Part shown: positions 1-53,407 of the stretch, piece after piece | How positions within the stretch are numbered: position 1 is the stretch's first letter | Layout: each line of letters starts with the position of its first letter | NCBI RefSeq assembly: GCF_002843385.1 | Contig: NZ_MVDE01000007.1 | Location: 1-64,000, forward strand | Direction of reading: 5' to 3' | DNA: 64,000 nt | Origin: Labilibaculum manganireducens | GTDB taxonomy: Bacteria; Bacteroidota; Bacteroidia; Bacteroidales; Marinifilaceae | Notes under the pieces: model-generated | Told to the model about the DNA's origin: nothing | The model's database searches: none | Seen by the model: only the letters and a program-made list of their open reading frames with translations | Made by a program: the position numbers and the translations under genes

Positions 1-735
1 TCCATAAATAAGTTGATCCTGCGTTGCCGGCGTCAAAAGTGATCGTATTTCCTGAGCAAGTCTGCTGATCTGCCCCCAAATTAACTGTTGGGTTGGCATG
101 AATCGTTGCATTGGCATCGTCTGTTGCGGAACAGCCGTTGGTATCTGTTACTGTTACGCTGTAATTGCCTGAAGTAGAAACTGTAATGCTTTGAGTAATT
201 TCTCCGGTACTCCATAAATAAGTTGATCCTGCGTTGCCGGCATCAAATGTGATGCTGTTGCCCGAACAGGTTTGTTGATCTGCCCCCAAATTAACTGTTG
301 GGTTGGCATGAATGGTTGCATTGGCATCGTCTGTTGCGGAACAGCCGTTGGCGTCAGTCATCACAACAGAATAATTCCCGGAAGTGGTCACCAAAATTCC
401 TTGCAAGGTTTCTCCTGTGCTCCACAAATATGTAGATCCTGGATGGCCTGCGTCAAACATGATATTATTTCCATTACACTCCTCTTGGTCTGCACCCAAA
501 TCAACAATTGGATTTGGATGAACGGTAATATTTATATCATCAGTTCCTGAACAGCCGTTGGCATCAGTTACTGTTACGCTGTAATTCCCAGAAGTTGAAA
601 CCGTAATTGTCTGAGTGGTTTCGCCTGTATTCCATAAATAACTCGCACCAACATAACCAGCATCCAAACTAATTGTATTTCCCTGACAGATCTCCTGATC
701 AGAGCCTAAATTCAAATTCAGGTTACTATTAATAT
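1..735 (-). repeat. Tandem 210-bp coding repeats (70-residue modules)
   Basis: The same segment (tccataaata...) recurs at 1, 211, 421 and 631, an exact 210-bp period that encodes 70 residues. The first 90 or so bases of the GATCTGCCCCC block after 76 and 286 are almost identical, while the other half of unit 1 resembles unit 3 more than unit 2. The copies are therefore mosaics, which suggests recombination or gene conversion between units. The array continues past the left edge. Confidence 0.9.
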
Positions 736-16958: not shown

Positions 16959-17267
16959 TTATTTGTTGCCGCCCAAAAGGCGGATTACCTCTTTCAGAAT
17001 TTCATTTTCAGTGGTAAGCTTCTCTATTTGCGGATTGACAGGGTTTTCGATATTGAGCTCTCCGGCGAGTATCTTAAAAAAATTAACCTGAAGTATCTCA
17101 CTAATCTTAGCCAGACGATCGATTTGAATGTCTGGCTTTTTTAGGATGTTGTAAGTGGCATTTAAACTTAAGCCAAGCTTTTTAGCCATTGCAGCTATGC
17201 TCACTTCCTGCTTTTTCATTTCTGATAAGATCAGCTCGTTGATGGGAATCGTTTTATTCGAAGTCAT
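16959..17267 (-). CDS. Small XRE-type helix-turn-helix regulator with C-terminal coiled coil
   Basis: About 103 residues from the ATG at 17267; an in-frame ATG at 17309 would add 14 residues without regulator character. Residues about 18-60 form an HTH (VSIAAMAKKLGLSLNATYNILKKPDIQIDRLAKISEILQVNF). Residues about 80-100 are a short leucine-zipper-like helix (IEKLTTENEILKEVIRLL) likely used for dimerisation. It is divergent from, and about 130 bases away from, the 21-bp repeat array that starts at 17400, so it is a candidate to bind that array. Its target is otherwise unknown. Confidence 0.75.
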   Translation of the reverse strand: MTSNKTIPINELILSEMKKQEVSIAAMAKKLGLSLNATYNILKKPDIQIDRLAKISEILQVNFFKILAGELNIENPVNPQIEKLTTENEILKEVIRLLGGNK

Positions 17268-17399
17268 GCTTAAAAATAGTGATAATAATTTACATTTTGC
17301 AATAATCAATCAACTTAAATGGTAATTTATTCCAGTAATAAGATAATTAATCACGGAAAAATAGTATTAACATACATTATTTTTGCAATAATACATATT

Positions 17400-17630
17400 C
17401 CCGTGGTTGCATCATACTGTCCCGAGGTGGTATCGTATAGTCCCTTGGTAGCATCACACCGTCCCGAGGTGATATCATATAGTCTCTTGGTAGCATCACA
17501 CTGTCCCGAGGTGGTATCATATAGTCCCTTGGTAGCAAGTTGCATTCCTATGGTAACATATTGCATTTCCGCAGTAGTAAGTTACATTCCTATGGTGGAA
17601 ACATACAGATCTGCAGTAATAATAGTAAAT
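17400..17630. repeat. 21-bp-period tandem repeat array, 11 units
   Basis: Eleven consecutive 21-base units run from 17400 to 17630 with no insertions. Units share a CC-x2-aGGTa-x2-ATC-type core. The first seven alternate between two subtypes (CCCGAGGTGGTATC and CCCTTGGTAGCATC), giving a 42-bp higher-order unit; the last four are more diverged. The period is a multiple of three, so ORFs stay open on both strands with seven-residue repeats, but I see no sign that these are genes. No transposase or CRISPR spacer pattern is present. Confidence 0.9.
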
Positions 17631-52321: not shown

Positions 52322-53072
52322 ATGTCAGATCAATCAGATTTAGAAATCCTCATGGATGAAATCAATGCCATAGAAAATAAAAACATAAAGCATTGCGACA
52401 TGCCATTCGAAATTTACATCTATGAAGCCGAACGGCTGCACACACGTGCAACAGAAGATCTGTCGAAACTTTCTGCCGTAAATATGCCGGTCGGTTTAAT
52501 CGATAAACTGCATGTCCGCACCAAGGCACTGAGCCGTGCACAGCTAAACTGGGTTGAACTGACAGGTGAAAAGAAACAGGCAATGACCAACCTTAAAGCC
52601 GAAACCCCCACCCTGCTAAAACTGCGCAAATACCTGATTGACAACATGCAGTTTGCTTTTAGAAATGATAAAGATCTGCTGAAAAAAAATCAGAGATATT
52701 AAAAAAGGCAATTCGCTGGCCAGTATCATTTTCGATTTGGCTTTATTGGCCCGACTGGGAAAAAGTAATGTTGAAGCCCTGCAAGCCATCAACTTCGATT
52801 TAAGTCTGTGCGATAAAGCCACCGAAGAATATGAACGAATAAGTAATTTACTGGCTATAAAAGACAGCAAAATGTACATTCCCGACGAGATGCTGCTAAT
52901 CCGAAACAAGGCCTTCACTCTACTTAAACAAGTGGTTGATGAAATCCGACGCTATGGTAAATTTGTTTTTCGGGATAAGCCCGGGATCGTAAAGGCTTAC
53001 CAAAGTGAACACCACTGCAAACGCAATGCTGAATACTATAACAACAAGAAAAACAACAGCTCTCAGAGTTAA
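52322..53072 (+). pseudogene. Helical protein of unknown function split by a frameshift
   Basis: A 126-codon ORF (52322-52702) stops soon after an A8 run at 52682-52689. Skipping one A joins it without a stop to the second ORF: LLKKIRDIKKGNSLASIIFDLALLARLGKS..., ending at 53072, about 249 residues in all. The joined protein is rich in helices, with Leu/Ala heptads (EAERLHTRATEDLSKL, LARLGKSNVEALQAI, ISNLLAIKDSK) and a C-terminal GKFVFRDKPGIVKAYQSEHH segment. No domain I recognise, no signal peptide. The join could be a real mutation, a sequencing slip, or transcriptional slippage on the A-run. Array 2 starts 126 bases after its end. Confidence 0.7.
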
Positions 53073-53197
53073 ATGAATACTTACCATACAAAAAAAGTCT
53101 GATCTTATTCCATTTTTATACATCCAGCCTAATAATTATTTGCTAACGCTTACTAATTAGATTTCTCTGCTGAGAATATTATGTGTTCATTTTATTA

Positions 53198-53407
53198 AAT
53201 AACATCATCAGATGAATAAATGATTATATCAGATAACAAAATGAATAAATCAGCTGTCATCTGATGGTATTAAATATTCATCTGAAGTAATAAAATTATC
53301 AGCAGTCAATGTGGTTTATTCATCTGACGATATTGTTTTTTACGCAAACTATATCATTTTATCTTCTGATATAGTAATAAAATCAGCAATCGTTCTGCAA
53401 TTCGTAA
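53198..53407. repeat. Second 21-bp-period repeat array, about 10 degenerate units
   Basis: CTGA recurs at 53261, 53282, 53324 and 53366, and TCAG at 53208, 53229 and 53250, all on one 21-base grid. Units such as CTGATGGTATTAAATATTCA and those from 53282 and 53366 (CTGA..AATAAAAT..TCAG) are alike, and CTGA-type units alternate with CA-type units (53303, 53345, 53387), again a 42-bp super-period. Period, alternation and the ATGGTA core match the array at 17400, but the units are far more diverged and AT-rich. Confidence 0.7.

Follow-up and report, generated by a model that had tools for sequence, protein, structure and literature searches.

What purpose is served by an unbroken run of 21-bp repeats lying beside the gene of a small XRE regulator? 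The question is raised by a locus in Labilibaculum manganireducens (source genome G000; 5.32 Mb in 97 contigs), on the first 64,000 nucleotides of contig NZ_MVDE01000007.1. The whole of that stretch was analysed and is called the window below.

The array and its neighbouring XRE gene

The window array consists of eleven consecutive 21-mers on the plus strand (17399..17629) that abut in a single register, as a preliminary description of the window had claimed, and 21 bp amounts to two helix turns of B-DNA. Over positions 17400-17625 the array matches itself best at lags of 21, 42 and 63 (identities 0.59, 0.74 and 0.57), and all remaining lags from 10 to 69 stay at or below 0.36. Tandem Repeats Finder reports both a period of 21 (17399-17537, score 110) and a period of 42 (17395-17537, score 230). 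The earlier observation that seven units alternate in two subtypes holds for the first seven. As the units abut and unique spacers are absent, a CRISPR array can be rejected, in agreement with the preliminary description. The 42-bp super-period is strongest in the source genome (z 16.2 at lag 42 versus 9.0 at lag 21). Since the two lags score about equally in four same-locus orthologues, the super-period seems to reflect the recent duplication of a block of two units and is rejected as the functional unit.

The XRE gene lies on the minus strand (16959..17267) with its start codon at 17267, so that the array occupies its upstream region at a distance of 131 bp. The leader between them (17268..17398) is the probable, though unmapped, XRE promoter and contains weak in-phase units; on this side the array fades without a sharp stop. 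Beyond the far side of the array is the 3' end of a gene for a 952-aa Y_Y_Y-domain regulator, and the 3' end of the XRE gene faces a GH3 gene. The 102-aa protein combines a Cro/C1-type helix-turn-helix (HTH), identified by its match to Pfam HTH_26 (24.4 bits, cut-off 22), with a C-terminal tail of heptad-like Leu/Ile. Its score against HTH_3 (17.8 bits) is under the cut-off of 23, and it matches PHROGs transcription-regulation families with E-values of 9e-6 to 8e-4. A phage or plasmid origin was rejected, as no phage or plasmid relative was found at E 1e-5. No PDB match to profile A1 was obtained at E 0.01, and a weak PADLOC match to PDC-M69A (E 7.6e-5) is probably due to the shared HTH. The AlphaFold model, built with only 7 close sequences, is helical but too poor (pLDDT 48.6) to judge the C-terminal tail.

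The array recurs upstream of related XRE genes

Orthologues of the window XRE were matched in 8/8 same-genus genomes, G005 aside, and homologues in 15/59 relatives and 35/198 members of the class. A protein scan of named genomes gave 8 loci, in three Labilibaculum, two Marinifilum, two Marinifilaceae MAGs and, weakly, one Clostridiales MAG. The locus set used here contains 97 XRE loci, namely 103 less four duplicates (L091, L092, L093, L096) and two with misplaced starts at contig ends (L063, L151); it also excludes L038, L056, L061, L077, L098 and some further homologue matches. Many of these loci are paralogues or near relatives and are therefore not independent. Periodicity was scored as lag identity over 480 bp on either side of the gene, with dinucleotide shuffles as the background and z>4 as threshold.

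Upstream of the XRE gene this threshold is passed at lag 21 in 47/97 loci, at lag 42 in 46/97 and at lag 63 in 38/97, and no lag between 10 and 64 off this ladder passes in more than 4/97. Downstream, lag 21 passes at only 1/96 loci, and HTH_3 control regulators from the same class show it in 0/30, with one locus each at lags 22 and 41 among their top three lags. (The HTH_3, PQLLE and DUF6261 comparisons were scored on the top three lags plus lag 21, and the poorly anchored loci L202 and L217 were kept in the denominators.) The absence of any other array from the genome and its relatives had been named as the main result that would refute a functional reading, and the outcome is the opposite. 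Related XRE arrays include periods of 22 and 41 bp, and when lags 21, 22, 41, 42 and 44 are all counted, a phased array is present at 56/97 loci, which come from 25 genomes and 8 taxonomic families, and absent at 41/97. In the 41-bp array of L097 (MAG BB29) the offset of the motif alternates between about 18 and about 23 bp.

The same layout of gene and array thus recurs in many relatives, and the sequence of the sites changes from case to case. We found no published account of such an XRE gene with its array, in a search that lacked preprints and most subscription journals.

The unit motif follows the protein while the array changes

When upstream regions are scanned with a matrix made from the window units, those of the XRE gene in G002, G006, G007 and G008 each contain 8 or 9 sites that exceed the 95% shuffle level and keep register and strand. 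The match is weaker at a second locus, where the neighbours differ, with 2, 5, 2 and 2 such sites in contig C5 of G000, in G004 and in two Marinifilum; a further copy, in MAG BB29, has its best match on the opposite strand, so that the strand is kept in 4/5 copies. The unit motif therefore follows the XRE protein between two loci. It is absent from all 30 other XRE arrays tested (7 XRE2 loci, 6 other XREs of the genus and 17 arrays from other families), and G003, whose XRE is 75% identical, also lacks it. At the C5 copy (L058, G000:C5:143061-143522) the XRE gene is shortened to a 54-aa ORF and the array is still strongly periodic; G004 and Marinifilum retain a full-length XRE at this locus.

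A comparison of G007 with G008 shows 30/168 differing positions in the array, 1/146 and 0/146 in the two flanks and 4/306 in the XRE gene. The array thus turns over much faster than its flanks with motif and period held constant, which argues against neutral decay. The preliminary description had suggested comparing unit number, and had taken a fixed number together with decay typical of neutral sequence to be evidence against function. Counted by one rule, the five same-locus genomes have 13, 9, 9, 8 and 8 units, so the number varies between species, and the decay, confined as it is by motif and period, is not of the neutral kind.

Dyad symmetry of the units, assessed by column permutation over 50 arrays, is present in a subset. 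It reaches p<0.05 in 17/50 and p<0.01 in 9/50; outside the window's family the counts are 12/22 and 9/22, and inside it 5/28 and 0/28. The window array itself has no significant dyad (p 0.83). Palindromes can be seen unit by unit in, for example, L066, L161, L168 and L172.

Gln48 marks the proteins that own arrays

With 96/97 proteins aligned, an array is present for 46/48 of those with Gln at position 48 and for 3/36 of those with Asp48. The split persists outside the window's family, where 15/16 Gln48 proteins and 3/32 Asp48 proteins have an array. As Gln48 tracks array ownership, the proteins with an array seem to make up a subfamily. In the low-confidence AlphaFold model position 48 comes after helix 35-43, which may, by inference, be the recognition helix.

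Placement and proposed mechanism

At 42/53 array-positive loci the upstream neighbour is co-directional with the XRE gene and turns its 3' end toward the array; at 11/53 it is divergent. (These 53 include the misplaced-start locus L063, and neighbours are uncurated ORFs of >=90 aa.) Downstream neighbours are convergent at 32/52 loci. Control of a divergent neighbour was rejected as the rule, given its 11/53. Of the features of a repressor's multi-operator autoregulatory region, the position ahead of the gene for the regulator itself is present, and dyad symmetry is seen in only part of the arrays. We prefer autoregulation because the upstream neighbour mostly presents its 3' end, although no promoter has been mapped.

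We consider it reasonably probable that the units are operators of the adjacent XRE protein in an autoregulatory array. There are no binding data, and binding, co-operativity, autoregulation and its sign are all inferred. In this model the XRE gene would form one self-contained cassette with the array ahead of it, and each 21-bp unit would be the operator for one XRE dimer. With the two-turn spacing, six to fifteen dimers would line up next to one another along a single face of the DNA, where they might co-operate once loaded, perhaps via the C-terminal helix. The promoter most directly served would be the XRE gene's own, as most loci have the array flanked by the XRE start on one side and by the 3' end of an unrelated gene on the other. 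The result could be a steep, dosage-sensing autoregulatory switch, with repression likelier than activation. Units would be gained, lost and exchanged rapidly, 21 bp at a time, and the protein would drift together with its site, which would give each XRE clade a private code. The idea first put forward for this locus, a landing strip for a protein that binds repeatedly along one face, possibly the XRE protein, is supported, with binding, polymerisation and a leucine zipper in the tail all untested.

One close comparison is with the operator regions of phage CI and Cro (lambda OR/OL and 434), where three dyad operators, at intervals of about two helix turns, precede the gene of the regulator itself. 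The Cro/C1-type HTH and the spacing and position of the sites are shared, as are dyads in a subset of the XRE arrays, to which the window array does not belong. Unlike the phage regions, the XRE arrays comprise 6-15 contiguous units, need no divergent cro-like partner and, for the window XRE, have a protein without phage or plasmid relatives at the threshold used. Plasmid iterons and centromere repeats (parC, tubC, the omega heptads) are contiguous direct repeats by the gene of a small DNA-binding protein, as here, but the XRE arrays are chromosomal and their unit sequence differs from clade to clade. No replication initiator or partition NTPase was noticed by eye in the window or among the listed, unannotated neighbour ORFs.

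Other phased arrays in the genome and alternative explanations

Phased arrays in this genome are not confined to XRE genes. Within 2.46 Mb of G000 non-coding arrays peak, apart from 7-bp microsatellites, at lags 21, 42, 63 and 84 (18, 24, 11 and 16 arrays), and 34/52 non-coding arrays have a phased period. Three unrelated families besides XRE own similar arrays, some with same-unit partners elsewhere. Genes for PQLLE proteins (NF052641), which have no HTH, pass at upstream lag 21 in 11/12 loci, such as L188 (G000:C1:82752-83864); six of the 12, all from the source genome, are above the family cut-off and the other six are weak matches. The top signal at PQLLE locus L181 is a 7-bp microsatellite. 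DUF6261 genes (PF19775) pass at upstream lags 41-42 or 82-84 in 9/13. In a fourth family, of about 255 aa, the top lag on the 3' side is 21, 41 or 63 with z>4 in 5/6 loci and on the 5' side in 0/6; these six, of which two are nearly identical, were drawn from a total of 8 copies in G000. The window holds a copy split into two ORFs (52322-52702 and 52737-53072), which is a single frame of 256-258 aa in four relatives. A second, weaker 21-bp phased array 3' of this split gene (~53170-53400) is accounted for by the family's habit of carrying one on that side.

Dyad symmetry was found in 1/10 PQLLE arrays and in 3/11 of the other 21-22-bp arrays of the genome, these three having one unit in common. 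Two trios of phased arrays without an owner each repeat one unit, a 42-bp trio at C2:236370, C3:186742 and C6:105307 and a 22-bp trio at C10:130809, C12:32127 and C6:75507. Two further repeats are of other kinds: a dispersed repeat upstream of L189, present at 49 places in the searched part of the genome, and a 210-bp tandem repeat at the start of the window (1-568).

A different role for the XRE protein is conceivable, in which it would cover its array and so assemble a fixed body of DNA and protein, centromere-like or for anchoring or silencing, with autoregulation secondary. The XRE arrays, at 6-15 units, do exceed the needs of a promoter in length, and the intergenic space upstream is wide, with a median of 460 bp. 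Other families, moreover, have same-unit partner arrays distant from the gene: in the searched part of the genome 5/8 DUF6261 and 3/7 PQLLE gene arrays have their unit at another place, although one such place, C5:124709, is non-periodic by a short test. Partners of the DUF6261 loci L199, L193, L197 and L200 lie at C1:264113, C2:77411, C4:96958 and C13:92725. For the five XRE arrays of the source genome, however, no phased partner was found in the 46% of the genome searched, nor one for the window array in the whole genome except the homologous C5 copy. Nor was any ParA- or ParM-type gene noticed among the listed neighbours, which were inspected by eye and not systematically annotated. We regard such a scaffold as unlikely, without dismissing it.

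It could also be that a general mechanism independent of any particular protein makes phased intergenic repeats, for which the XRE upstream regions are merely a frequent landing place. The abundance of phased arrays in G000 would fit this, as would the position of some of them between convergent genes with no evident owner. Against it, the motif follows the XRE protein between loci, and upstream regions at large are seldom periodic. Only 9/569 regions in G000 (genes of >=120 aa with a gap of >=250 bp) reach a lag-21 identity of 0.56, compared with the 47/97 XRE loci that are periodic by the shuffle test. By the former, cruder threshold only 2/5 of the XRE loci of the same genome pass at lag 21. 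Such a process seems to us a still weaker candidate than the scaffold.

Like bacterial minisatellites (VNTRs), in which unit number varies and turnover is fast, the XRE arrays vary in unit number and change quickly. A neutral minisatellite should have neither a tie to a gene nor constraint on its motif, and the XRE arrays keep motif, strand and 21-bp register and are tied to one protein subfamily across 8 taxonomic families, so we reject this explanation as very improbable. Least tenable of all is a heptad-peptide coding repeat or an RNA element: a 122-aa plus-strand ORF does span the window array and 21 bp is seven codons, but no reading frame across the array stays open in every orthologue, as the preliminary description's doubt about a coding repeat had anticipated, sister arrays have periods of 22 and 41 bp, and neither strand folds better than shuffled sequence (z 0.09 and 1.26).

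An autoregulatory operator array remains the reading we prefer for the XRE loci. Because families without an HTH own similar phased arrays, the phasing needs more than an HTH explanation, and it may serve something more general.

Implications

The recurrent layout of a gene with its private array points to an undescribed self-targeted DNA switch or scaffold. A wider and more speculative proposal, which we hold only tentatively, is that Bacteroidia contain a general, undescribed class of such gene-and-array cassettes, in at least four unrelated families (the Gln48 XREs, PQLLE, DUF6261 and the ~255-aa family). The arrays would be arbitrary in sequence and fast-changing, and the proteins, as private binders, would use mutually exclusive, evolving codes to address or organise the chromosome. 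If this is true, natural families of DNA-binding proteins come paired with their own fast-evolving arrays of sites, and would offer material for work on the HTH recognition code, on the co-evolution of proteins with their sites and on orthogonal DNA addresses. It also raises the question of what leads several unrelated proteins in a single lineage to retain private arrays that are phased to the helical repeat.
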